64,000 bases of DNA. Source: Hymenobacter oligotrophus (lineage in GTDB: Bacteria; Bacteroidota; Bacteroidia; Cytophagales; Hymenobacteraceae). A program made the position numbers and the translations under genes. The stretch lies in assembly GCF_003574965.1 (NCBI RefSeq), contig NZ_CP032317.1:1240001-1304000 (forward strand), read 5' to 3'. The notes under the pieces were generated by a model. That model was given only the letters and a program-made list of their open reading frames with translations, was not told where the DNA came from and did not search any database. Each line of letters opens with the position of its first letter. The stretch's first letter is position 1. Shown piece by piece: positions 3,140-62,011 of the stretch.

Positions 3140-4420
3140 ATGGCCAACCCGAACGACCCTTCCCTGCACTCCTGGATTGACATTGCGCCCAACAGCGACT
3201 TTCCCATCCAGAACCTGCCGTTTGGCGTGTTCGAAACGGAGGAACGCGGAACGCGGGTGGGCGTGGCCATTGGCGAGTACGTGCTCGATTTGTACGCCGT
3301 AAGCCAGTTCGGCTTGTTCCGCGGGCTCGATCTACCTTCGGAGCCGCGGGTGTTCCGGCGTCGTTCGCTCAACGGGTTTATCAAGCTGGGCCGGCCGGTG
3401 TGGCGGGCGGTGCGGCAGCGCATCAGCCAGCTGCTGCGCCACGACAACCCCGAGCTGCGCGACAACGAGGAGGCCATGCGCAGCTGCTTGGTGCGCCAGC
3501 GCGATGTGCGCATGCTGCGCCCCGTGAAGCCCAACAACTACACCGACTTTTACAGCAGCATTGAGCACGCTACCAACGTGGGCACCATGTTCCGCGACCC
3601 GGCCAACGCCCTGCTGCCCAACTGGAAGTGGATACCCATTGGCTACCACGGCCGCACGAGCAGCATCGTGGTAAGCGGCACCGATATCCGGCGGCCCCTA
3701 GGTCAAAGGAAGGCGCCCGATGCGCAGGTGCCCACCTTCGGCCCCTCGCAGCAGCTCGATTTTGAGCTGGAAGTGTCGATGGTAGTGGGCCAAGGCACTG
3801 CGCTGGGCGAAACCGTGCCGTTGGAGCAAGCCGAAGACCACATTTTCGGCCTGCTGCTGTTCAACGACTGGAGCGCCCGCGACCTGCAGAGCTGGGAATA
3901 CGTGCCCCTAGGTCCGTTTTTGGGCAAGAACTTCGGGAGCAGCCTGTCGCCGTGGGTGGTTACGCTCGATGCCCTGGAGCCCTTCCGGGTAACCGGACCT
4001 GAGCAAGACCCCGAGCCCCTGCCCTACCTGCACCAGGTGGGTGCGCGCAACTTCGATATTCAGCTGGAGGTAAGCCTGCAGCCGCAAGGCGGCGAAGAAA
4101 ACGTGATTTGCCGCTCAAACTTTAAGTACATGTATTGGAGCATGGCGCAGCAGCTTACGCATCACGCCTCCAACGGCTGCCCGCTGGAGGTGGGCGACCT
4201 GTACGCCTCGGGCACCATCAGCGGCCAAAGCCCCGACTCGTACGGCTCGATGCTGGAACTCAGCTGGCGCGGCACCAAGCCCCTGACGTTGTCGGACGGC
4301 TCGCAGCGCAAGTTTATCCAGGACGGCGACACCGTGATTATGCGCGGTTTCTGCGAGCGAAACGGCCTGCGCATCGGCTTCGGCGAGGTGCGCGGCACTG
4401 TGCTGCCAGCTGTAGAGTAG
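3140..4420 (+). CDS. fahA: Fumarylacetoacetase
   Basis: A 426-aa enzyme that splits fumarylacetoacetate into fumarate and acetoacetate, the last step of tyrosine and homogentisate breakdown. The N-terminal SH3-like domain starts at NDPSLHSWID and the catalytic beta-roll follows; FYSSIEHATNVGTMFRDP, the DFELEVSMVVG metal-ligand strand and DWSARDLQSWEY are all intact. The length is normal. ATG 3140 is preferred over a TTG at 3110, since family proteins begin a few residues before NDPS and a TAnnTTTG box lies at 3105. No other tyrosine-pathway gene is in the window. Convergent with glpD across a hairpin. Confidence 0.95.
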   Translation: MANPNDPSLHSWIDIAPNSDFPIQNLPFGVFETEERGTRVGVAIGEYVLDLYAVSQFGLFRGLDLPSEPRVFRRRSLNGFIKLGRPVWRAVRQRISQLLRHDNPELRDNEEAMRSCLVRQRDVRMLRPVKPNNYTDFYSSIEHATNVGTMFRDPANALLPNWKWIPIGYHGRTSSIVVSGTDIRRPLGQRKAPDAQVPTFGPSQQLDFELEVSMVVGQGTALGETVPLEQAEDHIFGLLLFNDWSARDLQSWEYVPLGPFLGKNFGSSLSPWVVTLDALEPFRVTGPEQDPEPLPYLHQVGARNFDIQLEVSLQPQGGEENVICRSNFKYMYWSMAQQLTHHASNGCPLEVGDLYASGTISGQSPDSYGSMLELSWRGTKPLTLSDGSQRKFIQDGDTVIMRGFCERNGLRIGFGEVRGTVLPAVE

Positions 4421-4433
4421 CCGTCGGGTCATT

Positions 4434-4482
4434 TGTAGCGCGGAACCACAGGTCGGCGTAGCCAACGGATTTCCGCGCTACA
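4434..4482. terminator. Bidirectional hairpin between fahA and glpD
   Basis: 12-base arms 4434-4445 (tgtagcgcggaa) and 4471-4482 are exact complements, with a 25-base loop. It lies between two convergent genes. The sequence looks like a dispersed intergenic palindrome rather than a minimal terminator. Confidence 0.7.
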
Positions 4483-4485
4483 TTT

Positions 4486-7800: not shown

Positions 7801-8391
7801 ATGCAAAAGCACGTAATCGACCCCAAAAGCGTCCCGGGCTGGGGCATCGACGCCGACCCGGAAAACGACCCCACCTACCCCATGAAGCCCCACCGCACCG
7901 ACTTGGAGGAGCAGGGCTACAACTGGGAACGGCCCACGCAGCAACCCATCGACGTGGAAATACTGCACTCCAACGAGCGCCCCAACGTTACGGCCGTGTT
8001 CGGCACGGCCTCGCCGCCGCAAGGCCTGAGCGGCATTATCCGGCGCTGGGCGTTCCGGTGGAGCGAAAACGAATACAACCACTGGCTGCCGCTCATCCTG
8101 GCCGACCGCGTAAACGTGGTGGAAGGCGTGTTGGAAGACCTGGCGCACGGTAAATTTCCGAACATCTGGAAGGAAAAAGGCTACAACGCCTCTTGGAAGC
8201 ACGACCGCACCAGCCTGATTTTGCGACTATCGGCGTTTACGGCCGTAACCGCCGGTCTGGTGCTGTGGCTCACTTCGGGCGACGACGACAAAGGCTCGCG
8301 CAAGAAGAAAAAGAACAAGAAGAAGGCCCGGTACTACGACGAGAACGAGTACTACGCCGACGACCGGTACTACGACGAGAATCAGTACTAG
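7801..8391 (+). CDS. Hypothetical protein with one C-terminal membrane helix and a charged tail
   Basis: A 196-aa protein of no family I can name. The first 140 residues are soluble and rich in Trp, Pro and His (for example QGYNWERPTQQPID); a hydrophobic segment (LRLSAFTAVTAGLVLWLTSG) at about residues 142-161 could span the membrane; then comes an Asp run, a Lys-rich patch (KKKKNKKK) and a tail repeating a YYDENEYY-like unit three times. It starts 18 bases after the alcohol dehydrogenase and likely shares its transcript. A membrane or envelope-stress companion role is conceivable but unproven. Confidence 0.7.
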   Translation: MQKHVIDPKSVPGWGIDADPENDPTYPMKPHRTDLEEQGYNWERPTQQPIDVEILHSNERPNVTAVFGTASPPQGLSGIIRRWAFRWSENEYNHWLPLILADRVNVVEGVLEDLAHGKFPNIWKEKGYNASWKHDRTSLILRLSAFTAVTAGLVLWLTSGDDDKGSRKKKKNKKKARYYDENEYYADDRYYDENQY

Positions 8392-8416
8392 GCAAGCCCT
8401 AGGTGCCAAACCGCAC

Positions 8417-8462
8417 ATCAACACAAAGGCCGCCCCCAACCAGGGGCGGCCTTTGTGTTGAT
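8417..8462. terminator. Perfect 20-bp-arm hairpin
   Basis: Arms 8417-8436 and 8443-8462 are exact complements around a 6-base loop. It lies 25 bases after the 196-aa gene and faces the convergent acs gene; it should work in both directions. Confidence 0.85.
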
Positions 8463-8547
8463 TGGCCTGGAGTAAGGCAGAATCAGCCGCTGCCAGGCGA
8501 CATTTCAAGTGGCCCCTAGGTGGCGTCATGTCGCGCCCCCGAACGGG

Positions 8548-8632
8548 CATGTCGAGCCCCGTCGAGACATCTCGCCGGATAGTGATTATCCTCGGACGTC
8601 AGAACACGAGATGTCTCGACAAACTCGACATG
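8548..8632. repeat. Intergenic palindromic repeat (gagatgtctcgac type)
   Basis: Left arm 8548-8574 pairs with right arm 8607-8632 in two blocks (14 and 9 bp) separated by a 3-4-base mismatch, with about 32 bases between. It lies in the convergent gap before acs. It resembles the dispersed intergenic palindromes of Hymenobacter-like genomes; this is from memory and the copy number elsewhere is not visible here. Confidence 0.65.
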
Positions 8633-8688
8633 ACGTGCCATGATACGACGTTGCATAACACGACTTGCCATGGCCCTCTGAACTGGGC

Positions 8689-10677
8689 TTACTTCCGCCC
8701 TGCAATAATTTCATCCACCACCTGCGGGTCGAGCAGCGTGGTGGTGTCGCCTAGGTTGCCGGTTTCGCCTTCGGCTACTTTGCGCAAAATGCGGCGCATG
8801 ATTTTGCCGGAGCGCGTTTTGGGCAAGCCCGATACAATCTGGATTTTATCGGGCTTGGCGATTTTGCCAATTTCGGCCACTACGGTTTCGATGATGCTGG
8901 CTTCTAAATGGTTTCGCTCGGCCTCGGTACTGCCCTCGCCCTGGTGGCAAATCACGTAGGCGTAAATGCCCTGGCCTTTCACGTCGTGCGGGTAGCCCAC
9001 CACGGCCGACTCCACTACGTGCGGGTTTTGGTTGATGGCGTTTTCGATTTCGGCCGTGCCGAAGCGGTGACCCGAAACGTTAATCACGTCGTCGACGCGG
9101 CCGATGATTCGGTAGAGGCCGTTCTCGTCGCGGCGGGCCCCGTCGCCGGTGAAGTAGTAGCCAGGGTACGGCGCAAAGTACATTTGGCGGGCGCGCTCAT
9201 GGTCGCCGTAGGTGGTCCGGATAACGCCCGGCCATGCGGCCTTCAGGGCCAGGTAACCTTCCTGGTCGTTGCCTTCGATTTCCTGCCCTTCTTGCGTGAG
9301 CAACACGGGCTGCACGCCGGGCAGCGGCAGGCCGGCGTGGGCGGGCTTGCTGGGGGTAATGCCGGCCAGCGCCGAAACCATGATGCCGCCGGTTTCCGTC
9401 TGCCACCAGGTATCCACCACCGGGCAGCGTTCCTTGCCCACGTGCTGGTAGTACCAGTACCAGGCCTCCTCGTTGATGGGCTCCCCTACCGAACCTAGGA
9501 CGCGCAACGAATCGAGGGAGTAGCTGAGCACGTTGTCGAGCGGGGCGGCCATGAGCGAGCGAATGGCCGTGGGCGCCGTGTAAAAGATGGTGACCGAGTG
9601 CTTATCACAAACTTGCCAGAAGCGGCCCGCATCGGGGTACGTGGGCACGCCCTCGAACATAAGCGTGGTGGCGCCGGCCAGCAGCGGGCCGTAGAGCAGG
9701 TACGAGTGGCCCGTTACCCAGCCCACGTCGGCGGTGCACCAGTACACATCGTTTTCCTCTACCTGAAACACGTTGCGGAAAGTGTAATCGGCCCATACCA
9801 TGTAGCCGGCGGTACTGTGCACCACGCCCTTGGGCTTGCCCGTAGAGCCCGAGGTGTACAGGATGAACAGCGGGTCTTCGGCGTCCATTTCCTCGGCCGT
9901 GCAGGTTTTACCGGCTTCTTTTACTTCCTCGTGGTACCACACGTCGCGGCCTTCGTGCATGTGCACGGGCCAGCCCAAGTGCTCAATCACCAGCACCTTG
10001 CGCACCGAGGGGCAGTGCTCCAGGGCTTCGTCTACCACGCGCTTCACGGGGATTTGCTTGGCGCCGCGGTTGAGGCCGTCGGCGGTTATCACGAAGGCCG
10101 CCTCGGCGTCGTTCACGCGGTCGGCAATGGCCGTGGCCGAAAAGCCAGCGAAGATGACCGAGTGAATGGCCCCGATGCGGGCGCAGGCCAGCACGGCAAT
10201 GGCCAGCTGCGGAATCATGGGCATGTAGAGGCACACCCGGTCGCCCTTCTCCACCCCTAGGTTGTGCAGCACGTTCGAGAACTTGCACACCTCGTTGTAC
10301 AGCTCGCGGTAGGTTAAGCGCAGGTGGCGCTCCTTGGGGTCGTTGGGCTCCCAAATGATGGCCAGCTTGTTGCCGCGGGCGGCGAGGTGGCGGTCGAGGC
10401 AGTTTTCGGTGATGTTGAGCTTGGCTCCTTCAAACCACGTGGAGCTGCCCTCGGGCGAAAAAGCCCCGCCGCGCACCTTGTTCCACTTGCGGCGCCAGGT
10501 AAAGGGCTCGGCTACCTCAGCCCAGAAAGCATCGGGGTCTTCCACACTTTTGCGGTACGCCTCGTGGTAGTCTTCGAGGGAGCGGATGCGGGCGTGGCTC
10601 GCCACGGCAGCGGGCGGCGAGGGTTTGGCGGTAAGCGCACCGTTTTCGGAGGCGCGCGCGGCGGGGGTGGTGAGCAT
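8689..10677 (-). CDS. acs: Acetyl-CoA synthetase
   Basis: A 662-aa AMP-forming ligase that turns acetate, ATP and CoA into acetyl-CoA. Adenylation motifs are intact: ILYTSGSTGKPKGVVH near residue 265-280, YWCTADVGWVTGHSYLLYGPL, and DTWWQTETGG. The C-terminal domain holds GRVDDVINVSGHR and the TRSGKIMRR motif whose Lys is regulated by acetylation in this family. The CoA-site sequence YTFRNVF and the overall length fit Acs rather than its paralogue prpE, which lies 86 bases upstream in the same direction. With the symporter-kinase and the transporter upstream it forms an acetate/propionate use locus. Confidence 0.95.
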   Translation of the reverse strand: MLTTPAARASENGALTAKPSPPAAVASHARIRSLEDYHEAYRKSVEDPDAFWAEVAEPFTWRRKWNKVRGGAFSPEGSSTWFEGAKLNITENCLDRHLAARGNKLAIIWEPNDPKERHLRLTYRELYNEVCKFSNVLHNLGVEKGDRVCLYMPMIPQLAIAVLACARIGAIHSVIFAGFSATAIADRVNDAEAAFVITADGLNRGAKQIPVKRVVDEALEHCPSVRKVLVIEHLGWPVHMHEGRDVWYHEEVKEAGKTCTAEEMDAEDPLFILYTSGSTGKPKGVVHSTAGYMVWADYTFRNVFQVEENDVYWCTADVGWVTGHSYLLYGPLLAGATTLMFEGVPTYPDAGRFWQVCDKHSVTIFYTAPTAIRSLMAAPLDNVLSYSLDSLRVLGSVGEPINEEAWYWYYQHVGKERCPVVDTWWQTETGGIMVSALAGITPSKPAHAGLPLPGVQPVLLTQEGQEIEGNDQEGYLALKAAWPGVIRTTYGDHERARQMYFAPYPGYYFTGDGARRDENGLYRIIGRVDDVINVSGHRFGTAEIENAINQNPHVVESAVVGYPHDVKGQGIYAYVICHQGEGSTEAERNHLEASIIETVVAEIGKIAKPDKIQIVSGLPKTRSGKIMRRILRKVAEGETGNLGDTTTLLDPQVVDEIIAGRK

Positions 10678-10763
10678 CGGAGTAGGGTATTTTGGAGTTG
10701 AAGAGGAAGCGAAAAGAGCGGGAGGCCAACCCCGCCGACGGGCCGCGTACCCGGCCAGCTGAC

Positions 10764-12728
10764 CTAGGCCGATGGCGTCGACGCGGGCACCGATTCGGTT
10801 GTAGGCTCGAAAGCACGGCCAATGCCCCGGGCAGCCAGGGCGGTTCGAATTTCAACCAGAATCTGCGGGTCGTCGATGGTAGAGGGCGTGCTGAACGCTT
10901 CGCCATCGGCGAGCTGGCGCATGGTTTTGCGCAGGATTTTGCCCGAGCGGGTTTTGGGCAGGCGCTTTACCACCAGGGCTTGCCGAAAGCACGCCACCGC
11001 GCCAATTTGCTCGCGGATACGCTGCACCAGCTCGTTTTCCAGCTGCGCTTCGCCGATGGTTTGTCCGTCCTTCAGCACCACCAAGCCCACCGGCCGCTGC
11101 CCGCGCAGCTCGCAGGCAATGCCCAGCACGGCACACTCGGCCACGGCAGGGTGCGCGGCCAGCAGCTCTTCCATTTCGCCGGTGCTCAGGCGGTGGCCGG
11201 CCACGTTAATCACGTCGTCGACGCGGCCCATGATGTAGAGGTAGCCTTCGGCATCCTGGTAGCCACCGTCGCCGGAGAGGTAATAGCCGGGAAAGGTGCT
11301 CAGGTAGGATTGCCGGAAACGCTCGTCGTCGTGCCACAAGGTGGGCAGGCAGCCGGGCGGCAGCGGCAGGCGCACGGCCACCAGGCCGGTGGTGCCGGCG
11401 GGCACCGGTTGGCCGGCCTCGTCGAGTATTTGCACCTCGTAGCCCGGCACGGGGTGGCCCGCCGAGCCGGCGCGCGGCGCCGGCATATCGGCCAAGCCTG
11501 CCATAGTTGCCAGCATGGGCCAGCCCGACTCCGTTTGCCACCAATGGTCGACAACGGGCACGCCTAGGTGCTGGCCGGCCCACTCGTAGGTGGCAGGGTC
11601 GCACCGCTCGCCGGCCAGAAACAGGTGGCGCAACGAGCCGAGGTTGTAATGTTTCCGCAGCAAGCCTTCGGGGTCTTCCTTCTTGATGGCCCGAATGGCC
11701 GTAGGCGCCGTGAACAGCACGCTTACCCCGTGCTCCTGAATTACGCGCCAGAACGCGCCGGCATCGGGCGTGCGTACGGGCTTGCCTTCGTACAGCACCG
11801 AGCTGCAGCCGTGCAGCAATGGCCCGTACACGATGTAGCTGTGCCCCACGGCCCAACCAATATCCGAAGCGGCCCAAAACGTTTCGCCGGGCTGCACGCC
11901 GTAAATGGCACTCATGCTGTACCTAAGGGCCACGGCATGCCCGCCGTTGTCGCGCACCACGCCCTTGGGCTTGCCGGTGGTGCCGCTGGTGTACAGGATG
12001 TACAACGGGTCGGTGGCCTCGACGGGCACGCACTCCACGGGCTCGGCCCGCAGCAGCGCGTGGTAGTCTACGTCGCGGCCGGGCAGCATGCGGGCGTGCA
12101 CGGCGTGGGCAATAGCTTCGCGTTGCAGCACCACCACGTGCGCGGGCTGGTGGCTGGCCTGCTCGATAGCGGCATCAACCAAGGGCTTGTACGGAATGAT
12201 TTTGTCGATTTCGATGCCGCCCGAAGCCGCAATAATCACCTTGGGTTGGGCATCGTTGATGCGCACGGCCAGCTCGTGCGGCGCAAAGCCCCCAAACACT
12301 ACCGAGTGCACGGCACCTAGGCGGGCGCAGGCCAGCATGGCCACCACGGCCTCGGGCACGTTGGGCATGTAAATGACAACCCGGTCGCCGTGGCTTACGC
12401 CTAGGTTGCGCAGGCCGCCGGCAAAGCGGGCCGTGAGGTCGAGCAGCTCGCGGTAAGTAAACCGCCGCACGGTGTTGGTTACCGGCGAATCCTGAATAAG
12501 CGCCACTTGCTCGGCCCGCCCATTGGCCACGTGGTAATCGAGGCACAAATAGCAGGTGTTCAACCGCCCGCCCCGAAACCAGCGGTACAGCCCTTTTTCG
12601 AAGGCAAGCGGCTGCACGGGTGGCGTAAACCACTGAAGGGCCTGCGCCTGCTCGGCCCAAAATCCGGCCGGATCGGCGAGGCTGGCGGCATGCGCCGCAG
12701 CGTAGGTTGAGGCAGGAACAGGTTTCAT
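10764..12728 (-). CDS. prpE: Propionyl-CoA synthetase (PrpE type)
   Basis: A 654-aa AMP-forming acyl-CoA synthetase. The adenylation P-loop is ILYTSGTTGKPKGVVRDNGG, followed by FWAASDIGWAVGHSYIVYGPL and LYEGKPVRTPDAGAFWRV, which are signatures of PrpE rather than Acs. The end carries GRVDDVINVAGHR and TRSGKILRKTMRQ. It probably activates propionate, with acetate as a secondary substrate. The stop TAG lies inside a CCTAGG hexamer. No methylcitrate or methylmalonyl pathway genes are in the window, so the fate of propionyl-CoA is not shown. It reads toward acs with an 86-base gap. Confidence 0.9.
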   Translation of the reverse strand: MKPVPASTYAAAHAASLADPAGFWAEQAQALQWFTPPVQPLAFEKGLYRWFRGGRLNTCYLCLDYHVANGRAEQVALIQDSPVTNTVRRFTYRELLDLTARFAGGLRNLGVSHGDRVVIYMPNVPEAVVAMLACARLGAVHSVVFGGFAPHELAVRINDAQPKVIIAASGGIEIDKIIPYKPLVDAAIEQASHQPAHVVVLQREAIAHAVHARMLPGRDVDYHALLRAEPVECVPVEATDPLYILYTSGTTGKPKGVVRDNGGHAVALRYSMSAIYGVQPGETFWAASDIGWAVGHSYIVYGPLLHGCSSVLYEGKPVRTPDAGAFWRVIQEHGVSVLFTAPTAIRAIKKEDPEGLLRKHYNLGSLRHLFLAGERCDPATYEWAGQHLGVPVVDHWWQTESGWPMLATMAGLADMPAPRAGSAGHPVPGYEVQILDEAGQPVPAGTTGLVAVRLPLPPGCLPTLWHDDERFRQSYLSTFPGYYLSGDGGYQDAEGYLYIMGRVDDVINVAGHRLSTGEMEELLAAHPAVAECAVLGIACELRGQRPVGLVVLKDGQTIGEAQLENELVQRIREQIGAVACFRQALVVKRLPKTRSGKILRKTMRQLADGEAFSTPSTIDDPQILVEIRTALAARGIGRAFEPTTESVPASTPSA

Positions 12729-12788
12729 GGCGCAGGTTGTGGGAAAGAAGCTTGGCCGGCGAGCAGTAGCGGCGGTTAGTGCAGGGCC

Positions 12789-13178
12789 CTAGGTGGTTAT
12801 GGGTGCCAGCTCGCGTACTTTTTCGAGCAGCTGGCGCGTGGAGAAGGGCTTGGTGAGGTACAAGTCGGCGCCGGCTTCGTAGCCCTTCTGGATGTCGGCC
12901 TCGCGGCTTTTGGCCGACAGAAAAATCACCTTGGTTTCGTGGTGGGCGGGCAGCTGGCGCAGGTGGCGGCACACGTGGTACCCGTCGACGTCGGGCATCA
13001 TAATATCGAGCAGTACTACATCAAACGGCCCCCGCTCGATGGCCTCGAGGGCCTCGGTACCGTTGCGGGCTATGCTCACGGCGTAGCCGGCTTTGCGCAG
13101 CAAAAATTCCAGCGACATCACGATGTTCGGCTCGTCGTCGACTACCAGTACTTTATGAGCAGATTCGGTTGTTTTCAT
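12789..13178 (-). CDS. Stand-alone response-regulator receiver protein
   Basis: A 129-aa single receiver domain. Acidic pocket D14-D15 (LVVDDEPN), phosphorylation Asp58 (VVLLDIMMPD), S88 (IFLSAKS) and Lys110 (YLTKPF) are all present. There is no DNA-binding domain: the protein ends 19 residues after Lys110. The ATG at 13178 follows from the receiver start; the open frame upstream is non-coding. It lies 83 bases after the symporter-histidine kinase and is its likely phosphate acceptor. Output must go through another protein or by protein contact. TAG stop within CCTAGG. Confidence 0.92.
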   Translation of the reverse strand: MKTTESAHKVLVVDDEPNIVMSLEFLLRKAGYAVSIARNGTEALEAIERGPFDVVLLDIMMPDVDGYHVCRHLRQLPAHHETKVIFLSAKSREADIQKGYEAGADLYLTKPFSTRQLLEKVRELAPITT

Positions 13179-16045: not shown

Positions 16046-16052
16046 CAGGGGT

Positions 16053-27772: not shown

Positions 27773-27811
27773 AAGCCCTAGGTGCCCCTAGGGCCGAGCG
27801 TTGCAGCAGGG

Positions 27812-34821: not shown

Positions 34822-35089
34822 CTACTTAAATATAAAAGGGCGGGCTTGCGCGAAAACCAAACCAATGCGTTGCCCGCTCGTTCGAATCGGGCGCTGGTTA
34901 TTCCATCGGGGCAGCAACTCGAGCCGGCCTATACCTAGGAAACGGTCGGTGGGGCCTTCAATTCATAAGCGGCCGTTTACGCGGTAGCTGGTAGCATCGG
35001 GTAAGAGGTCTTTCATTGTAGAGTTAGAAAGACGGGAAAGTAATTGAAAACCTTTCTGCAGCAGGTGCACAGCAGAATGAACTAGGTGC
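34822..35089. other. Gap with no supported gene
   Basis: 268 bases. On the minus strand a start at about 35017 (MKDLLPDATSYRVNGRL, then stop) could be the stump of a decayed gene, but the frame closes after 17 codons and nothing recognisable follows. One CCTAGG near 34934. Confidence 0.4.
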
Positions 35090-35665
35090 TTATGCTACGC
35101 TATTAATACTCAACCCAAGGCATTTCATCCGTCGAAGATCAACAACAGTGTTAAAGTAGCAATTGCCACCATCATCTACTTCCACGACTTTTCTGCGCCA
35201 CTCGGTGCCGTTAAGCGGTTTGCAAAAACAATTTACCCATACCTTTTTTTCCCCTTTGCCATTGTAAAAAGCAACTAGCTGGCGTTTGTAGTTGGGAAGG
35301 TTAATGATAAAGTCAGATTCTTTAAGTGTTATTTTAGGATGCGTTTCTCGCATCTTCTGCAGTTTAATGCGTTGCTCAAGATTGTGCTTGCTTACACATA
35401 CATTAAGCAAATACTCTGTAAAGACTATTTCCTGTGCGGTAAGAGAAGCTCCTTTAACCTTTGATAACCGGTGTTTATCTCGCTCTAAATCATATGGGAT
35501 TACCGTGAATCTGGAAGAATCCAAAGGCGGTAATCCTTGATTTGAAGGAAAGGAATTAATTGCTGCTTGGGCATTAGTCTTTGTTTCACGACCGTTCTTG
35601 TCGTGACAAGCCGTATTGGCTAACAGCATGACAACCAACACTAGTGTAGACGCTACACGCATCAT
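35090..35665 (-). CDS. Lipoprotein of unknown function, AT-rich
   Basis: A 191-aa lipoprotein: signal peptide with lipobox LLANTAC (Cys at about residue 20). The body is basic and has four further Cys, including WVNCFCKPLNG. No known family seen. Its base composition is much lower in GC than both neighbours and it has no CCTAGG in its coding part, which points to recent arrival. A possible surface or signalling role is not supported by any motif. Confidence 0.65.
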   Translation of the reverse strand: MMRVASTLVLVVMLLANTACHDKNGRETKTNAQAAINSFPSNQGLPPLDSSRFTVIPYDLERDKHRLSKVKGASLTAQEIVFTEYLLNVCVSKHNLEQRIKLQKMRETHPKITLKESDFIINLPNYKRQLVAFYNGKGEKKVWVNCFCKPLNGTEWRRKVVEVDDGGNCYFNTVVDLRRMKCLGLSINSVA

Positions 35666-35682
35666 TGTAGTTTAGGAAATAG

Positions 35683-35711
35683 AAACGGCAGCTTTAAGAG
35701 AGCTGCCGTTT
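35683..35711. terminator. Hairpin after porX
   Basis: 11-base arms 35683-35693 and 35701-35711 with a 7-base loop, 19 bases beyond the porX stop. Confidence 0.75.
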
Positions 35712-35730
35712 AATTTAAAAATTCAATTAG

Positions 35731-37302
35731 TTACGCCCCTTTCGGCGAAAGCGTGATGTACGGAATAATGCACTCCTCCAACGAGATACCGCCGTGCTGG
35801 AAGGTATCCTTGTAGAAATTAACGTAGTAGTTGTAGTTGTTGGGGTAGGCGAAAAAGTAGTCACCTAGGGTGAATACGTACGCCGTCGAGACGTTTTCGC
35901 GGGGCAAGAACACGCGCTCGGGCTTGCGCACCACGTACACATCGCGCGATTCGTCGAAGCCCAGGTTTTTGCCGTGCTTGTAGCGCAGGTTGGTGTTCGT
36001 GTTTCGGTCGCCCACAATTTTGTAGGGGCGCTTGCAGCGAATGGTGCCGTGGTCGGTGGTGATGATGAGCTTGCCCTTTTTGTCGGCAATCTGCTGCAGC
36101 ATCTCGTAGAGAGGCGAGTGCAAAAACCACGAGCGGGTGATTGAGCGGTACGCCGATTCGTCGGCAGCTAGCTCCCGAATCATGGCCATGTCGGTGCGGG
36201 CGTGCGAGAGCATGTCCACGAAGTTGTAGACGATGACGTTCAGCTTATAGTTGTTGTGGAGGTTGGCCATTTTGCCCAGCAAGTCTTTGCCGGCCTGCAG
36301 GTTGGTAACCTTGTTGTAGCTGTACTTGTGTTTCTGGTTGGCCTTCTGGAACATAATTTCCATGAACTCGGCCTCGTGCAGGTTTTTGCCCTCGTCGTCG
36401 TCGTCCCAAACCCACAGGTTGGGGTACTTCTTCTGGATTTCGCCCGGCATCATGCCCGAAAAAATGGCGTTGCGGGCGTAGGCCGTGGTGGTAGGCAGAA
36501 TGGAGTAGTACATTTCTTCCTGATCCACCGTGAACATCTCGGCAATGATCGGCTCGAGCACCTTCCACTGGTCGTAGCGCAGGTTGTCGATGAGCAGGAA
36601 GTACACGGGCTGGTCGCCGGTTTCCTTCAGCAGCGGAAACACGCGCTCTTTAAAGAGTTGGTGCGACATCAGCGGCGCGTCGTCAGACTCGTCGTTTACC
36701 CACTCTTCGTAGTTCTCCGTGATAAAGCGCCCGAAGTAGGTGTTGGCTTCGTCCTTCTGCATGTTGAAGACGTCGGCCATGCTTTTGCCCTCCGTCTCGT
36801 TGATTTCCAGCTCCCAGTACACCAGCTTCTTGTACACATCGGCCCATTCCGAGGGCGAGAGGCGGTCGGAGAGCTGCATGCCAAGCTGGCGGAAGTCGCG
36901 CTGGTACGAGCTGTTGGTTTTTTCCGACACCAAGCGGTTGTAATCGAGCACCTTTTTCACCGACAGCAGAATCTGGTTCGGGTTGACGGGCTTGATGAGA
37001 TAATCCGCAATTTTGGAGCCGATGGCCTCTTCCATGATGTGCTCCTCCTCGCTTTTGGTAATCATAATCACCGGCAGCGTAGGCCGCGCAGCCTTAATCT
37101 CCGACAGCGCCTCCAGGCCCGTAATGCCGGGCATGTTCTCGTCGAGGAATACCAGGTCGTAATTCTGCGCCTGCACCTCTTCGATGGCGTCGGCGCCGGA
37201 GTTTACCCCGGTTACGTCGTAGCCGCGCTCCTTCAGAAACAGGATGTGCGGTTTCAACAGATCGATTTCGTCGTCGGCCCAGAGGATATTGTAGCGTTGC
37301 AT
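35731..37302 (-). CDS. porX: Type IX secretion response regulator/phosphodiesterase PorX
   Basis: A 523-aa two-domain protein. A receiver domain fills residues 1-120 with D10-D11 and the phosphorylation Asp54 (LVFLDENMPG), T-motif MITKS and Lys in DYLIKPVNP. After a helical linker, residues ~200-500 form a PglZ-type alkaline-phosphatase-superfamily domain with metal ligands in FLLIDNLRYDQW, ILPTTTAYARNAIFSGMMPG and IITTDHGTI. PorX with its kinase PorY controls genes of the type IX secretion system and gliding. ATG 37302 (MQRYNIL) is the receiver start; the upstream frame is intergenic. No other T9SS gene is in the window. Confidence 0.95.
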   Translation of the reverse strand: MQRYNILWADDEIDLLKPHILFLKERGYDVTGVNSGADAIEEVQAQNYDLVFLDENMPGITGLEALSEIKAARPTLPVIMITKSEEEHIMEEAIGSKIADYLIKPVNPNQILLSVKKVLDYNRLVSEKTNSSYQRDFRQLGMQLSDRLSPSEWADVYKKLVYWELEINETEGKSMADVFNMQKDEANTYFGRFITENYEEWVNDESDDAPLMSHQLFKERVFPLLKETGDQPVYFLLIDNLRYDQWKVLEPIIAEMFTVDQEEMYYSILPTTTAYARNAIFSGMMPGEIQKKYPNLWVWDDDDEGKNLHEAEFMEIMFQKANQKHKYSYNKVTNLQAGKDLLGKMANLHNNYKLNVIVYNFVDMLSHARTDMAMIRELAADESAYRSITRSWFLHSPLYEMLQQIADKKGKLIITTDHGTIRCKRPYKIVGDRNTNTNLRYKHGKNLGFDESRDVYVVRKPERVFLPRENVSTAYVFTLGDYFFAYPNNYNYYVNFYKDTFQHGGISLEECIIPYITLSPKGA

Positions 37303-39099: not shown

Positions 39100-40149
39100 A
39101 TGGAATTTACGGTAGGCCAGATTGCGGGCATCCTGAACGGCTCGGTAGAAGGTGACTCTGCCTTGCGCGTGGACCGGCTGGCAAAAATCGAAGAAGCCCG
39201 CGCTGGCGCCGTGGCCTTTTTGGCCAACGCCAAATACGAGCCCCACCTCTACTCCACAGCGGCCACGGCGGTTATTGTTAGTAAAACCCTGGTGCTCAAG
39301 CAGCCCGTGCAAGCTGCCCTCATTCGGGTCGACGACCCGTACCTAGGGTTTACCATGCTGCTCGAGTTCTACCAGCAGTTTACGCGCGCTGGCAAACGCG
39401 GCGTGGAGCAGCCCTCGTTTGTGGGCCAGGGCTCCGAAATCGGCGACGAAGGCTACCGCGGCGCTTTCTCCTACGTGGGCGAAAACTGCCACATCGGCAA
39501 GGGCGTGCTGATTTTTCCGCACGCCACCATCGGCGACCGGGTGCGCATTGGTGAAGGCACTATTGTGTACGCCGGCGCCAAAATTTACCCCGATACGGTA
39601 ATCGGGGCGCGCTGCGTCATCCACGCCGGTGCCGTCATCGGGTCCGATGGGTTTGGCTTCGCGCCGCAGCCCGACGGCTCGTACCGCCCCATTCCGCAAA
39701 TCGGCAACGTGGTGCTCGAAGACAACGTGAGCGTGGGCGCCAACGCAACTATCGATTGCGCCACCATGGGCTCTACCATTATCCGCGAGGGCAGCAAAAT
39801 TGACAACCTCGTGCAAATTGCGCACAACGTGGAGGTAGGCCGTCACACCGTAATTGCCTCCCAAACGGGCATTTCGGGCTCCACCAAAATCGGCGACTTT
39901 TGCGTGCTGGCTGGCCAAACCGGCCTTGCCGGGCACCTCACGCTAGCCAACCGCACCACGGTTACGGCGCAGTCGGGAGTGGGCAAATCCATCAAAGAAG
40001 AAGGCCAGTTTTTGCAAGGTTCCCCCGCCTTCAATTTGCGCGACAGCCTGCGGGCCAACGCAGTTTTTCGGCACCTGCCCGAGCTCGAGCGCCGCTTGCT
40101 AGCCCTGGAACGCGCCCAAGCCAAGCCAGACGAGGCGGAAAAGTCATAG
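39100..40149 (+). CDS. lpxD: UDP-3-O-acylglucosamine N-acyltransferase
   Basis: A 349-aa cytosolic enzyme that adds the N-linked acyl chain in lipid A synthesis. N-terminal substrate domain (FTVGQIAGILNG, AVAFLANAKYEP) to about residue 100, then left-handed beta-helix hexapeptide turns (CHIGKGVLIFPHATIGDRV), and the catalytic-His region IAHNVEVGRHTVIASQTGISG. C-terminal helix LPELERRLLALERAQ. ATG 39100 fits the family start; a TTG at 39091 would precede it by three codons and overlap the promoter box. First of the lpxD-lpxC/fabZ-lpxA set. Confidence 0.95.
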   Translation: MEFTVGQIAGILNGSVEGDSALRVDRLAKIEEARAGAVAFLANAKYEPHLYSTAATAVIVSKTLVLKQPVQAALIRVDDPYLGFTMLLEFYQQFTRAGKRGVEQPSFVGQGSEIGDEGYRGAFSYVGENCHIGKGVLIFPHATIGDRVRIGEGTIVYAGAKIYPDTVIGARCVIHAGAVIGSDGFGFAPQPDGSYRPIPQIGNVVLEDNVSVGANATIDCATMGSTIIREGSKIDNLVQIAHNVEVGRHTVIASQTGISGSTKIGDFCVLAGQTGLAGHLTLANRTTVTAQSGVGKSIKEEGQFLQGSPAFNLRDSLRANAVFRHLPELERRLLALERAQAKPDEAEKS

Positions 40150-40164
40150 CTTTGCGGCCGACTT

Positions 40165-40260
40165 CAGGAGTCAGAAGCTAGGAGTTGGGAGCTAGAAGCG
40201 GGCGCGTTCCGGTTCGGCCCCTACCGCTCCGGCCTCCTAGCTCCTGACTCCTAGCTCCTG
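40165..40260. repeat. Low-complexity inverted spacer (ctaggagt type)
   Basis: Left arm 40165-40198 and right arm 40233-40260 are built from permutations of aggag, tcag and ctag words; they pair loosely, not perfectly. It fills the gap between lpxD and lpxC/fabZ. Confidence 0.6.
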
Positions 40261-40263
40261 ATA

Positions 40264-41658
40264 ATGTTCGACAAACAGCATACGATTAAGGCCCCCGTTA
40301 CCGTGAGCGGTGTGGGGCTGCACACGGGCGTGCAGGCTACCATGACGTTCTGCCCCGCTCCCGTAAACCACGGCTACAAGTTTCAGCGCATCGACCTGGA
40401 GGGCCAGCCCATCGTGGACGCCGACGTTGATAACGTGGTGGATTTGTCGCGTGGTACTACCATCGAGCAGAACGGCGCCCGCGTAAACACCGTGGAGCAC
40501 ACCCTGGCCGCCTTGGTGGGTTTGCAAATCGACAACGTGCTGATTCAGCTCGACGGCCCCGAGCCGCCCATCATGGATGGCTCGTCGTTGCCGTTCGTCG
40601 ACGCGCTGCAAGCCATTGGCCTGGAGGAGCAGAACGCGCTGCGCAACTACTTCGAGATTCCCGACGAAATCCGGTTTGTCGACAACGCCCGCGGCGTCGA
40701 GATTGCCGCCCTGCCGCTCAACGATTACCGCGTAACGGTAATGGTTGACTACAACTCGCCGGTACTGGGCTCGCAGCACGCCTCGCTCACGAACATCGAG
40801 CAGTTTTCGGAGGAAATTGCCGCCTCGCGCACCTTCTGTTTTCTGCACGAGCTGGAAGCCCTTTACAAGTCGAACCTGATCAAAGGTGGCGACTTGAGCA
40901 ACGCCATTGTGGTCGTCGACCGCGTGGTGAGCGAGGAAGAGTTGGGCGATTTGGCCACCATGCTGGGCAAACCTAGAGTGGCCGTAAAAAAAGAAGGCAT
41001 CCTGAACAACGTGGACCTGCGCCACAAAAACGAGCCGGCCCGCCACAAACTGCTCGACGTAGTGGGCGACCTGGCCTTAGTGGGCCGCCCCATTAAAGGG
41101 CAAATCTTGGCAGCTCGGCCGGGCCACGCGGCCAACGTCGCGTTTGCCAAGAAGATCAAGAAGAAAATGCTGGAGGTTGATACCTCGCCGGTGCCGCAGT
41201 ACGACCCCTCGCGCCCGCCGGTGATGGACATCAACCAAATTGCCCAGATCCTGCCGCACCGCTACCCGTTCCTGCTGATCGACAAGATCATTCACCTCGA
41301 CGCCACCACGGTAACGGGCGTGAAGAACGTGACGATGAACGAGCAGTTTTTCACGGGTCATTTCCCGGGCAACCCGGTAATGCCGGGCGTGCTGCAAATC
41401 GAGGCCATGGCCCAAACTGGCGGCATTTTGGTTTTAAACACCGTGCCCGATCCCGAAAATTACTGGACGTATTTCCTGGGTATCGAAAACTGCCGGTTCC
41501 GCCGCAAGGTTATTCCCGGCGACACCATCATTTTCAAGTGCCAGCTGGTTTCGCCGGTAAAGCGCGGCATTGCCAAAATGCGCGGCCAGGCTTTCGTAAA
41601 CGGCAAAGTGGTGATGGAGGCAGAAATGTCGGCCAGCATCGTTCGGAAAGACGCTTAA
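40264..41658 (+). CDS. lpxC/fabZ: Bifunctional UDP-3-O-acyl-N-acetylglucosamine deacetylase / 3-hydroxyacyl-ACP dehydratase
   Basis: A 464-aa fusion usual in Bacteroidota. LpxC part (1-~305): GVGLHTGVQATMTF, the zinc-site His in NTVEHTLAALVG, DGPEPPIMDGSSLPF, and HKLLDVVGDLALVG. FabZ part (~318-464): ILPHRYPFLLIDKI, with the active His in FTGHFPGNPVMPGVL and the Glu in QIEAMAQTGG. LpxC makes the committed step of lipid A; FabZ dehydrates 3-hydroxyacyl-ACP in fatty acid synthesis, so the fusion joins two routes that compete for the same acyl-ACP. Confidence 0.97.
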   Translation: MFDKQHTIKAPVTVSGVGLHTGVQATMTFCPAPVNHGYKFQRIDLEGQPIVDADVDNVVDLSRGTTIEQNGARVNTVEHTLAALVGLQIDNVLIQLDGPEPPIMDGSSLPFVDALQAIGLEEQNALRNYFEIPDEIRFVDNARGVEIAALPLNDYRVTVMVDYNSPVLGSQHASLTNIEQFSEEIAASRTFCFLHELEALYKSNLIKGGDLSNAIVVVDRVVSEEELGDLATMLGKPRVAVKKEGILNNVDLRHKNEPARHKLLDVVGDLALVGRPIKGQILAARPGHAANVAFAKKIKKKMLEVDTSPVPQYDPSRPPVMDINQIAQILPHRYPFLLIDKIIHLDATTVTGVKNVTMNEQFFTGHFPGNPVMPGVLQIEAMAQTGGILVLNTVPDPENYWTYFLGIENCRFRRKVIPGDTIIFKCQLVSPVKRGIAKMRGQAFVNGKVVMEAEMSASIVRKDA

Positions 41659-41663
41659 TTCAC

Positions 41664-41766
41664 CAATTATCAATGATCAATGAACAATTATCAATGAACG
41701 CCGAGTGGCCAGTTTGTGGTCCAATCGTTGCTCACTGATCATTGCTCATTGTTAATTGTTCATTGA
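41664..41766. repeat. Low-complexity inverted spacer (tcaatgatc type)
   Basis: Left arm 41664-41699 and right arm 41733-41766 are made of tcaatga, attatc, ttgttaattg words that pair loosely. It fills almost all of the 112-base lpxC/fabZ-lpxA gap. Confidence 0.6.
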
Positions 41767-41770
41767 CTAA

Positions 41771-42568
41771 ATGAACCAACCGCTCGCCTATATTCACCCC
41801 GACGCGCGCATTGCGCAAAACGTGGTGGTCGAACCGTTTGCCACCATCGCGCAAGACGTTGAAATTGGGGAAGGCACCTGGATCGGACCCAACGCAACGA
41901 TCATGTCGGGGGCGCGCATCGGCAAAAACGTTAAGATTTTTCCGGGCGCCGTTATCTCGGCCATTCCGCAGGACCTCAAGTTCGCAGGCGAGAAAACCAC
42001 CGTGCACATCGGCGACAATACCGTGATTCGGGAATGCGTAACGATTAACCGCGGCACCGTAGACCGGATGAAAACCGTGGTGGGTAGCAACTGCCTGCTG
42101 CAAGCCTACGTGCACATTGCGCACGACTGCGTGGTGGGCGATAATTGCATTCTTTCGAACACCACACAGCTGGCCGGCCACGTGGTAATCGGCGACTGGG
42201 CCATTTTGGGTGGTACCTCGGCCGTGCACCAGTTCGTGCACATCGGGCAGCATGCGTTTATCGGCGGCGGCTCGTTGGTGCGCAAAGACGTGCCCCCGTT
42301 CATTAAGGTGGGCCGCGAGCCGCTCACTTACGCCGGTGTAAACTCGGTTGGCCTGCGCCGCCGCGGCTTTAGCGAAGAGGCCATTCTGCAAATTCAGCAG
42401 TGCTTCCGCCTACTGTTCATGAGCGGCCTGAACACCAGCGACGCCCTCGACAAGATTGAGTTGGAGCTGCTGCCCTCGCCCGAACGCGACGAGGTGGTAA
42501 ACTTCGTGCGCAACTCAAGCCGCGGCATCATCAAGGGCTATTCGCGCAACGGCAACAGTGCAGATTGA
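41771..42568 (+). CDS. lpxA: UDP-N-acetylglucosamine O-acyltransferase
   Basis: A 265-aa cytosolic acyltransferase for the first step of lipid A synthesis. Ten or so hexapeptide turns (VEIGEGTWIGPNATIMSG, IGDNTVIRECVTINRG), the catalytic His in VHIAHDCVVGDN, and the C-terminal helical part (VGLRRRGFSEEAILQI). Length is normal. The following ABC ATPase starts within its last codons (11-base overlap), so the two are translated together. Confidence 0.96.
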   Translation: MNQPLAYIHPDARIAQNVVVEPFATIAQDVEIGEGTWIGPNATIMSGARIGKNVKIFPGAVISAIPQDLKFAGEKTTVHIGDNTVIRECVTINRGTVDRMKTVVGSNCLLQAYVHIAHDCVVGDNCILSNTTQLAGHVVIGDWAILGGTSAVHQFVHIGQHAFIGGGSLVRKDVPPFIKVGREPLTYAGVNSVGLRRRGFSEEAILQIQQCFRLLFMSGLNTSDALDKIELELLPSPERDEVVNFVRNSSRGIIKGYSRNGNSAD

Positions 42569-43184
42569 GGCCATCGGGCTGGGCAAGCGCTTCGGCCGCG
42601 ACTGGATTTTTCGCGAGCTGACGCACACGTTCGCCTCGGGCACGGCCACTGCGTTGCTGGGCCCCAACGGCGCCGGCAAAAGCACGCTGCTGCAGGTATT
42701 GGCTGCCTACACGTTGCCTTCGGCCGGTGAGCTGCGCTTTACGCTGCAGGGCCGGCCGGTGCCGGCCGATGAGGTAGCCCGCCACCTAGGGCTGTGCGCC
42801 CCCTACCTCGAGCTGATTGAGGAGCTGACGCTGGCCGAGCTGGTGCAGTTTCACACCCGGTTTCGGCCGCTGCGCGCGGGCTTGTCGCACGCGCAGCTCA
42901 TCGAGCTAATGCAATTGCCGCACGCCCGGCACAAGCTGGTGCGCGACTTTTCGTCGGGCATGAAGCAACGCGTAAAACTGGCCTTGGCCTTGTACGCCGC
43001 CGCGCCCCTGCTGCTGCTCGACGAGCCCACCACCAACCTCGACCGGGCTGGCATTGCGTGGTACCACGAGCACGTGGCCGCTACCACGCCGGGCCGCCTG
43101 GTGCTGGTAAGCTCGAATGTGGAGGAGGAATACGCCTTTTGCCAAGCGCGGCTGCACGTAACCGACTTTGCCCCGCGTCGGTAG
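42558..43184 (+). CDS. ABC transporter ATP-binding protein
   Basis: A 208-aa single ATPase domain. Walker A LLGPNGAGKSTLL (~34-46), Q-loop region near LGLCAPYLE, signature FSSGMKQRVKLALAL, Walker B LLLLDEPTTNLD. The GTG start overlaps lpxA by 11 bases, leaving no room for another start before Walker A. The usual membrane partner is missing from the window. It is of the CcmA/ABC-2 type in size. Whether it serves lipid A or glycan export or is simply a passenger of the lpx operon is not shown. Confidence 0.85.
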   Translation: MQIEAIGLGKRFGRDWIFRELTHTFASGTATALLGPNGAGKSTLLQVLAAYTLPSAGELRFTLQGRPVPADEVARHLGLCAPYLELIEELTLAELVQFHTRFRPLRAGLSHAQLIELMQLPHARHKLVRDFSSGMKQRVKLALALYAAAPLLLLDEPTTNLDRAGIAWYHEHVAATTPGRLVLVSSNVEEEYAFCQARLHVTDFAPRR

Positions 43185-48895: not shown

Positions 48896-48938
48896 AAAAC
48901 AAAGCGGCCGCACCTCCTAGGTGCGGCCGCTTTGTTTT
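48896..48938. terminator. Perfect hairpin, 20-bp arms, centred on CCTAGG
   Basis: Arms 48896-48915 and 48919-48938, loop of three bases; the loop region itself contains CCTAGG. Between the convergent small membrane protein and valS. Confidence 0.88.
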
Positions 48939-48955: not shown

Positions 48956-51667
<2,712 letters not shown>

Positions 51668-51695
51668 AGTCGCTCGAGAATCAGTTCGGAAGCGG

Positions 51696-51703
51696 CAAAA
51701 GTA
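51696..51703 (-). promoter_or_regulatory. -7 box TACTTTTG before valS
   Basis: Exact TAnnTTTG on the minus strand, 28 bases before the valS ATG. It supports the start at 51667. Confidence 0.6.
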
Positions 51704-51882
51704 GGCATTTCGGGGCGGGGGCGGAAGCTTGCTTACAGGCCCGTCCGACGTATGAGTGCTGCGAAGCCAGTATTTTCGCCCCGACAAGTGAGCCGCTCAG
51801 AGGTTTAACGAGCTAATGAGTTATTTTTAAGGTTTGGCTCGCAGCCATTGCAAGGCGCTGAACTTGAAGCTTTCTGTTGCGC

Positions 51883-54242: not shown

Positions 54243-54283
54243 CAATCAGTCAAATGACCTAGGGCCTAGGTGCCTTGCAGCAG

Positions 54284-60593: not shown

Positions 60594-61894
60594 CTGGCAG
60601 CCGAAACGTTTCGTTGGAGAATGCGGCTGCCGATGGCGCAATGCAGGCAGCGCCTAGGTGCGCAATAGCCGTTGTGCAAGGCCAGCAAGCCCTGCGAATC
60701 GGCGGCCGAGCGGTGCCGAAATTCCAACGCTTCGTACACGGCCAGAATGCTGTTTTGCTCGCGCGGCAACTGTGTCAGCAGTTCCACGGTGGCCTCTATC
60801 CCGGCCTGGTTATCGATGGAGCGAGCATGGGCTATCCGCAGCGGCACCACCACGTTGATGATAAGCAAATGCGCACTGCTTTTGCCTAGGCCGGGCACTT
60901 TGGCCGCCGGCACGCCAGGCCGGTAGTGGCTTTGCCAATACTCCGATACCGGCACCAGCAGCAGTTTCTCTAGGGTGCGTACGTCGGGGGCATCGAGCAA
61001 GGGCTGAAACAACCGGGGCTGGGCGTGCAGCAAAGCGGCCAGTTGGGCCAAGCGTACCGTGGGGAAGTTGGCGGGGCGCAACCGCAGAAAATTCCACTCG
61101 TGCGCTTGCATGGCCGCCGGCCCTAGGTTGTATTTATGCGCCAAGAAGTCGTACTCGCCGCGCAGGTTGGCGCAGTACTCATCGGGGGCCGAATCGGCGG
61201 GCGGCAGCAGCCCGGCTTGCCCAAAAAGCAGGGCCTCGGTTTGGCGCAAATCGTGCCGGTGCTTGCGCAAAACAGACAGCGGCAACGCCTGCGCAAGCCG
61301 GGCCAGCGGCTCGGTGTTCTTCTTGAATCCAAAGCCTCCAGCCAAGGCGTGCCAGGCCGTGCTTTCCCAATCGTGGCCGGTGCGGGCGTGCAGGGCCTGC
61401 AACACCGCGGCTTTTTCCGTAACGCGCTCGAGCAGCACGCGCTCAACCATCATCAGGCGGGTAAGCTCGGGCACGGCAGGCAGGGCTCCCGCACAGGGCA
61501 AAAGCGCCGGCACCGGTGCATTGGTAAGGGCGTGGTAAGCGGCCAGCAACGTGGGCTCGATGCGCGGCCCTAGGTTGAGCGTGGGCACGGGGGTGCCGTC
61601 GGTGCGGTGCACGGGCGCATCGGCGGTGTGCACTACATGCAGCACTACCTGGTCGTATTTTTTGTCGGCTTGGTGGTTGTGGCGGTGCCAATCCGACGCA
61701 CGCAGGTGTATCTCCACGGCGCCGTTCCACTCCACATCCCCAATCATCAGGCGGGCATTCAAAAAATCCGGGCCGGCATCGGCGTTGCGGTAGCCAGGCC
61801 GCAGCACGGTTACGTCCTCGCCGCCTTCGGTACGAAGCAAGGTTTTATCGAAGTACTGATGCTGCCAGACGTAGTGAATAAAATCTTCCTGCAT
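60590..61894 (-). CDS. DUF2851 family protein
   Basis: A 434-aa member of DUF2851, a family largely restricted to Bacteroidota and of unknown function. Conserved features: MQEDFIHYVWQHQYFD start, GYRNADAGPDFLNARLMIGDVEWNGAVEIHLRASDWHRHNH region (split GPDFLNARLMIGD and WNGAVEIHLRASDWH), the HxHxxD-like cluster, and LPREQNSILAVYEALEF. The pattern of acidic and His residues suggests a metal-dependent hydrolase or nuclease, which I cannot confirm. Coupled by GTGA to the membrane protein downstream. Confidence 0.88.
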   Translation of the reverse strand: MQEDFIHYVWQHQYFDKTLLRTEGGEDVTVLRPGYRNADAGPDFLNARLMIGDVEWNGAVEIHLRASDWHRHNHQADKKYDQVVLHVVHTADAPVHRTDGTPVPTLNLGPRIEPTLLAAYHALTNAPVPALLPCAGALPAVPELTRLMMVERVLLERVTEKAAVLQALHARTGHDWESTAWHALAGGFGFKKNTEPLARLAQALPLSVLRKHRHDLRQTEALLFGQAGLLPPADSAPDEYCANLRGEYDFLAHKYNLGPAAMQAHEWNFLRLRPANFPTVRLAQLAALLHAQPRLFQPLLDAPDVRTLEKLLLVPVSEYWQSHYRPGVPAAKVPGLGKSSAHLLIINVVVPLRIAHARSIDNQAGIEATVELLTQLPREQNSILAVYEALEFRHRSAADSQGLLALHNGYCAPRRCLHCAIGSRILQRNVSAAR

Positions 61895-61950
61895 ACCGGA
61901 TTCGGGCCCCGAGAATAATCCGACGAAAATACGCCGCCCCGCCCAAAATA

Positions 61951-61991
61951 CCGCGGCCCGCCCCTGCCTAGGTGGCAGAAGCGGGCCGCGG
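61951..61991. terminator. Hairpin after lolA
   Basis: 11-base outer arms 61951-61961 and 61981-61991 plus an inner ctgcc/ggcag stem around a CCTAGG. It lies between the lolA stop and the DUF2851 start. Confidence 0.8.
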
Positions 61992-62011
61992 GCAAAGGCA
62001 CCTAGGCAAGC

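Follow-up and report, generated by a model that had tools for sequence, protein, structure and literature searches.

The window analysed here is the whole 64,000-nucleotide stretch of Hymenobacter oligotrophus contig NZ_CP032317.1 from position 1,240,001 to 1,304,000, and it is densely marked with the hexamer CCTAGG, the core of an asymmetric octamer, ACCTAGGS (S = G or C), that forms the subject of this work. The sites, the stretches free of them and the genes referred to below are arranged as follows, in window coordinates.

1..3696: site-free AT-rich left end (46% GC), with a DUF6882 gene on the minus strand at 2261-3169
3697..62006: span of the 93 CCTAGG sites, 79 of them ACCTAGGS
27777..27792: pair of sites at a distance of 10 bp, CCTAGGTGCCCCTAGG
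34940..35863: no sites; contains the AT-rich patch at 35.1-35.7 kb
39348..42784: the window's longest run without sites at normal GC content (0.59)
40264-41658 and 41771-42568: LpxC/FabA-like fusion gene and LpxA-like gene, both inside the preceding stretch
48916..48921: site of the rarer ACCTAGGA type within the inverted repeat GCGGCCGCACCT-CCT-AGGTGCGGCCGC, terminator-like by eye
48956..51787, minus strand: valyl-tRNA synthetase (ValRS), the anchor gene for locating orthologous regions and the basis of the tree
54258..54270: pair of sites at a distance of 7 bp, CCTAGGGCCTAGG, arranged as the inverted pair ACCTAGGGCCTAGGT

The 93 sites compare with 10.93 (standard deviation (sd) 3.25, largest value 22) in 100 dinucleotide shuffles and with 20.5 expected from independent bases, in good agreement with the counts of about 90 and about 20 given in a preliminary description of this DNA. 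All CTAG tetramers together number 141 against 232 expected from base composition, and the 48 outside CCTAGG match the earlier estimate of about 45 in other contexts, below chance. The same description had proposed the genome-wide ratio as a check, a value near 1 counting against the word; over the whole 4.19-Mb genome the excess stands, with 5,678 copies of CCTAGG against 67 of the reversed word, a density of 1.36 per kb or about one per 700 bp. Within 455 kb of this genome's own sequence, small contigs included, 548 sites were found against 89 under a first-order Markov model, a comparison that counted both strands (1,096 against 178). Frame, spacing and flanks were tested on about 404 kb of chromosome, with genes called by a crude caller; the small contigs were excluded from this chromosomal flank sample (546 sites, 404 kb) and from later tests. 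No earlier report of ACCTAGGS or CCTAGG as a word was found in the open-access literature searched; a passage in PMC1939737 names GCCTAGGC as a palindrome with unknown effect.

Based on the flanks, the functional word looks asymmetric. Among the 546 chromosomal sites, 462 read ACCTAGGS on one strand, 35 SCCTAGGS and 32 ACCTAGGA, and 10 are the palindrome ACCTAGGT; in the window, ACCTAGGS accounts for 79 of the 93 (32 on the plus and 47 on the minus strand) and ACCTAGGT for only one. Exactly one arm is A/T in 494 of the 546 sites, against 272 (sd 12) when arms are paired at random, which rules out the palindrome as the unit. Hence the earlier term "palindrome" is right for the core, CCTAGG, and wrong for the one-sided word that is iterated. 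Weak additional preferences extend to a C before the A (219 of 462) and a C after the S (240 of 462). Orientation is even throughout: genome-wide, 2,350 copies of ACCTAGGS are forward and 2,332 reverse, successive sites are in the same and opposite orientation in a ratio of 207:237, and sites in the commonest coding frame run along the gene in 125 cases and against it in 151. There was no visible link of site orientation to GC skew by locus in the 404 kb sample, and the even orientation lends no support to the replication-linked role suggested earlier.

The word is abundant in very few relatives. In a survey of 120 genomes of the family, five had 5,325 to 7,530 copies of CCTAGG and the remaining 115 had 54 to 661, and in a sample of 395 genomes of the phylum, which did not include the other four carriers, only the H. 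oligotrophus genome (G000) exceeded 734. Three of the five carriers belong to the same genus (G000, G004 and G025), and the other two are G058 and G079. Within a genus sample of eight genomes, the three carriers had more than 4,500 copies of ACCTAGGS each and the five non-carriers 25 to 67.

Inside genes, the word is written mostly at Leu-Gly. In the window, 64 sites are coding, 61 in the frame C-CTA-GG (Leu-Gly) and 3 in CCT-AGG, and 29 are non-coding, bearing out the claim that the coding frame is nearly always CTA-GGN. Synonymous codon shuffling gave 33.9 coding copies of CCTAGG where 360 were seen and 11.9 (sd 2.9) copies of ACCTAGGS where 304 were seen; Leu-Gly frequency and CTA usage, named earlier as what would refute the idea if they fully explained the excess, thus yield only 34 of the 360. 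The word occupies 323 of 950 Leu-Gly pairs, and the observed/expected ratio of the Leu-Gly dipeptide is 1.08; the shuffle and this ratio together rule out Leu-Gly bias as the cause. Of the 533 Leu codons in NNC-Leu-Gly contexts 326 are CTA, and where Leu precedes any residue but Gly the figure is 504 of 11,339. Moreover, the Gly wobble follows the second base of the codon preceding Leu: a preceding xAC goes with GGG or GGC in 125 of 132 cases and a preceding xCC or xGC with GGT in 151 of 178, and where Leu is CTG or CTC there is no such tie. Codon-pair bias, also raised in the preliminary description, cannot explain a word whose Gly wobble varies with the codon ahead of Leu, and it was rejected.

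The word-bearing Leu-Gly places keep these residues in other carriers (59 of 60 and 56 of 58), and in five non-carriers Leu-Gly is kept at 67 to 72% of them (24/36 to 26/36), compared with 74 to 78% for other Leu-Gly pairs. Because carriers and, for the most part, non-carriers keep Leu-Gly and the dipeptide is hardly above chance, the coding copies are synonymous recoding, mostly written silently into existing Leu-Gly pairs. Site density outside genes exceeds the 1.15 per kb within them: in gaps of 20-800 bp it is 4.06 per kb between convergent genes, 2.88 between tandem and 2.04 between divergent ones.

The sites are also spaced with unusual evenness. In 4 kb bins the variance/mean ratio was 0.55, the lowest in a set of 251 comparably abundant hexamers (350 to 750 copies; median 1.18) that also contains the word itself and its shifted form, and the lowest unrelated hexamer reached 0.76. 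Uniform placement was as even as observed in 1 of 1,000 trials at 4 kb, 0 of 1,000 at 2 kb and 4 of 1,000 at 5 kb. Under a coding-aware null, in which sites were placed only where Leu-Gly, Pro-Arg or intergenic DNA permits (31 of 539 sites were unclassed), simulations at 2 kb gave 1.17 (sd 0.12) against 0.60 seen, with 0 of 400 as even, and bins of 4 and 5 kb had the same outcome. These spacing tests exclude one site-poor locus, L014, in which 11.7 kb (8342-20000, running to the end of the stretch) are without a site. The genes there encode an MvdD-like ATP-grasp protein, a DUF6734 protein, a C39-peptidase ABC transporter and an HlyD-like protein, probably a peptide natural product cluster and presumably acquired DNA. 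In the 51 kb sampled from three small contigs, presumed plasmids (20 kb each from those of 42 and 31.6 kb and the whole of the 11 kb one), 2 sites were present. Within the window, the AT-rich patches lack sites as described earlier, the first site being at 3697 and none lying between 34939 and 35864. The 3.4 kb at 39348-42784 are likewise site-free, though their LpxC/FabA-like and LpxA-like genes look core.

Comparison of orthologous regions revealed turnover among the carriers. Among aligned sites, G004 kept 53 of 84 (63%) and G025 60 of 84 (71%) at about 87% identity, while the five same-genus non-carriers (80 to 81% identity) kept 0 or 1 of 44-49, their common states being CCCAGG, CCTGGG, CCGAGG and CCTCGG. 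Retention in G025 is high, 71% against 48% for the median hexamer, with only 4 of 446 hexamers better kept. At 103 aligned places with a site in at least one of the three carriers, the site was present in all three in 38, in two in 32 and in one in 33. For 54 sites with at least two non-carriers aligned, the site differed from the non-carrier consensus by one change in 10, two in 18, three in 17 and more in 9. In all 10 one-change sites the altered base is the A of the central TA, where the consensus has C in 7 cases and G in 3; the 36 one-mismatch partners among carriers show differences at 7 of 8 positions, with the central A affected in 16. A single type of change as the signature of mutation or repair was rejected, given that 44 of the 54 sites are at least two changes from the non-carrier consensus and that partners differ at 7 of 8 positions. 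The several kinds of base change also argue against a single-substrate repair enzyme of the kind previously suggested; the searches did not include a Vsr-like gene.

Word scans covering 8.6 to 404 kb in each of 33 genomes (two stretches of 1.6 and 2.8 kb being left out) showed that the CCTAGG carriers use three flank dialects: ACCTAGGS in G000, G004 and G025, SCCTAGGS in G058, chiefly CCCTAGGG, and ACCTAGGT with ACCTAGCT in G079. Words of other sequence were found in G052 (CCTACCCC/CTACCCCC, 85 and 89 against 4.4 and 4.1 in 100 kb), G113 (CCCTACCC, 40 against 2.4 in 80 kb), G031 (GGCTAGCC, 86 against 10.5 with both strands counted, 80 kb) and G081 (GGGGCCCC, 132 against 15.0 with both strands counted, and AGGGCCCC, 71 against 8.9; 80 kb). 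These four are candidate dialects, the codon-use null having been applied to CCTAGG alone. The GGGGCCCC/AGGGCCCC-type word of G055 is weaker and clumped and that of G119 is a weak CTACCYC; since repeat-like words such as CAGCAGCA score about 9 to 14, the scores of G055 (19) and G119 (15) make weak calls. The other 22 scanned genomes, 14 of them covered in at most 20 kb, showed no word of such strength. Even spacing in 4 kb bins is not common to every dialect. The variance/mean ratio of CCTAGG was 0.75 in G004, 0.61 in G025, 0.53 in G058 and 0.55 in G079, and GGCTAGCC in G031 (0.65) and CCTACCC in G052 (0.32) were similarly even; marked evenness was lacking for ACCTAG in G079 (1.39), CCCTACCC in G113 (1.47) and GGGGCCCC in G081 (0.96) and G055 (2.69). 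Among the named matches listed, the best for the ValRS of G000 was that of Hymenobacter sp. IS2118, at 75%. In a midpoint-rooted tree of this one gene from 16 genomes, G000, G004 and G025 share a single branch (support 0.86), G058 is the partner of G052, and G079 lies by itself. With carriers on three branches, CCTAGG words therefore arose or were lost more than once.

Profile searches were made for three methyltransferase families (PF00145, PF01555 and PF02384) in 32 genomes and for a fourth (PF02086) in 15. G000 had no match to PF00145, PF01555 or PF02086, other methyltransferase families not being searched, and its single PF02384 match is an HsdM with HsdS and HsdR adjoining.

L247:9650-16268: type I restriction-modification operon (HsdM, HsdS, HsdR), followed by a 693 aa open frame without a Pfam match

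In G025, the only match in the four families was to PF01555, with none to PF00145, PF02384 or PF02086, and no methyltransferase of these four families was common to G000, G004 and G025. The earlier suggestion of methylation thus found no support in the families searched. No Hymenobacter methylome was found in the open-access literature searched. ComEC (PF03772) is present in G000, and the pilus/type II secretion ATPase PF00437 was above cut-off in 1 of 32 genomes (G043, a non-carrier) and weak in G049 and G113. DUF5689, the one Bacteroidota surface candidate tested, chosen after a Riemerella screen, matched 14 of 32 genomes: below cut-off in G000 and G025, well in G079, not at all in G004 and G058, and also in non-carriers. 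Among the families searched (the four methyltransferase families, PF00437 and DUF5689), the reader protein was not found.

Taken together, the data ask for a reader of an asymmetric octamer and for a process that adds sites where they are too few. We propose, with a probability of about 0.42, that ACCTAGGS serves as a watermark of self DNA, specific to its lineage and most closely resembling a DNA uptake sequence. A sequence-specific DNA-binding protein would read the octamer in either orientation, and DNA bearing it would be favoured. The likeliest setting would be biased uptake or recombination of same-species DNA during natural transformation, comparable to the uptake-sequence systems of Neisseria and Haemophilus except for the lack of a type IV pilus. 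Each recombination event would tend to swap a site-free allele for a site-bearing one, so that sites would accumulate to about one per 700 bp and thin out where redundant. They would settle mostly at silent or intergenic places, newly arrived DNA would be without them, and dialects would follow changes in the reader protein. Biased uptake with recombination would in this way account for the density, the neutrality to strand, the concentration at silent and intergenic places, the lack of sites in new DNA, the relatively even spacing and the dialects described above (PMC7811141, PMC3630211). As described in PMC7811141, Haemophilus uptake sequences have a spacing of about 1,000 bp and a relatively even distribution and are scarcer in newly acquired segments and coding sequences, which is ascribed to a biased-uptake drive.

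The resemblance to the DNA uptake sequences and uptake signal sequences (DUS/USS) of Neisseriaceae and Pasteurellaceae lies in a chromosomal word at about one per kb, in depletion from DNA that appears to be acquired and in higher density outside genes. ACCTAGGS is shorter (8 bp) and has a palindromic core. DUS/USS also occur as close inverted pairs at terminators; here, convergent gaps are the richest and close pairs are not in excess. Lack of a pilus is no bar in the Bacteroidota, which include Riemerella. According to a passage in PMC8459023, Riemerella is naturally competent with no pilus homologue detected.

Several observations weigh against an uptake word. Known DUS/USS use type IV pili, and no PF00437 match was obtained in any of the five carriers (G000, G004, G025, G058 and G079); ComEC occurs in 15 of 15 genomes searched, carriers and non-carriers, and does not discriminate between them. 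DUF5689 was rejected as the reader, its presence not tracking the word. Retention in G004 is moderate, 63% against 52% for the median hexamer, with 66 of 447 hexamers better kept, and one-mismatch forms are not generally in excess (614 against 590). Gaps shorter than 50 bp number 27 of 528 where 37 are expected (orientations pooled), and isolated sites are not better kept than crowded ones, contrary to coverage selection, which was not significant through either loss or gain (p = 0.26 and 0.43 for kept versus lost sites; 0.63 and 0.28 for new sites). Finally, a passage in PMC1939737 describes uptake sequences as "not as evenly spaced" as one would expect of sequences that compact the chromosome, and the strong evenness can therefore also be read as pointing to an intracellular role.

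An intracellular protein could bind the octamer along the chromosome, for nucleoid packing, for self-recognition by a nuclease or defence system, or for Chi-like control of recombination, and the spacing would be kept even by selection that requires every stretch of DNA to hold one site or more. This explanation, somewhat unlikely in itself, is nearly as likely as uptake. The evenness is strong (0.55 at 4 kb; 0 of 400 simulations), and the three small contigs and one cluster are nearly or wholly site-free, as expected of marks of "self". The trait also appears and changes its flanks between related species, as defence or recognition genes often do. The Chi-like version draws on the fact that Chi is a short, over-represented word able to mark a cell's own DNA to recombination nucleases. 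However, Chi is oriented along replication, whereas ACCTAGGS, also short and over-represented, is unoriented (2,350:2,332), has a palindromic core and shows no visible link to GC skew. Even spacing is a mark of chromosome-compacting sequences according to PMC1939737, in the passage quoted above. Against an intracellular reader in general, no candidate protein was found, isolated sites are not better kept, and the small contigs persist almost without sites, so that DNA in this cell can evidently survive without the word.

Improbable, by comparison, is a system like the highly iterated palindrome HIP1 of cyanobacteria, in which a cognate methyltransferase would modify the word and methylation-linked repair or mismatch repair would create and keep it (the model of Elhai 2015). 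The preliminary description had likened the word to HIP1, and the likeness holds for a hugely over-represented word spread over the chromosome, with methylation remaining without support. The likeness to HIP1 and alternate HIPs extends to the replacement of the octamer by other words in some relatives and to a density near one per kb, as predicted by that model (PMC4390886); the same paper also mentions four HIP1-rich strains without a recognisable CGATCG enzyme. In contrast to the palindromic HIP octamers, the word here is asymmetric (ACCTAGGS in 462 of 546 sites), although those of G058, G031 and part of G079 are palindromic, and it belongs to another phylum. More than one kind of base change separates its sites from their counterparts, and searches of the four families, which did not extend to further families or to a Vsr-like gene, gave G000, G004 and G025 no methyltransferase in common. 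The lone PF02384 match in G000 is a type I HsdM. Type I restriction-modification targets are two-part.

That codon-pair, Leu-Gly or mutational bias makes the word without any recognition is hardly credible and already refuted as far as the sequence allows: most coding copies are indeed Leu-Gly, the relatives' states there are often Leu wobble variants, and the central A is the differing base in all 10 one-change sites and in 16 of the 36 one-mismatch partners, but the synonymous shuffle (304 against 11.9), the higher density outside genes, the equality of strands, the Gly wobble tied to the second base of the pre-Leu codon only where Leu is CTA, the small contigs of the same assembly nearly without the word, the 0 or 1 of 44-49 aligned sites kept by same-genus non-carriers and the 44 of 54 sites at least two changes from the non-carrier consensus all stand against it.

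Extending the watermark proposal to the family, we tentatively suggest that a pilus-independent uptake or self-recognition system in Hymenobacteraceae writes a species-specific octamer chromosome-wide, and that the word switches between neighbouring species, giving a dialect set of ACCTAGGS, SCCTAGGS and ACCTAGST, with GGCTAGCC, CCTACCCC and RGGGCCCC as candidates. A word of this strength occurs here in another phylum than those of uptake sequences, Chi and HIP1, and its sharp on/off pattern among near relatives provides matched same-genus sets for tracing the reader gene. As an uptake word, it would reveal the means by which Bacteroidota without pili tell their own DNA from other DNA; otherwise it would represent a new code for self-marking or chromosome organisation, one with no known enzyme. 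The strong evenness, gauged with a coding-aware null, makes drive and coverage selection testable against each other in quantitative terms.

Three other words deviated from expectation. TGCGCA is mildly over-represented, with 71 copies in the window against 20.5 from base composition and 906 against 684 under the first-order Markov model in the genome's own sample (both strands). GATCNC is strongly avoided in the 404 kb sample of the same genome, the counts after GATC being 2 for GC, 1 for TC, 7 for CC and 18 for AC, with 15 to 142 copies in the twelve other two-base contexts; this looks like the pressure of a restriction system targeting GATCNC. In genus g5 of the family survey, GGATCC had 0-15 copies per genome in 15 of 43 genomes and 21 to 199 in the other 28 (counted by hand), a second on/off word pattern, here one of avoidance.

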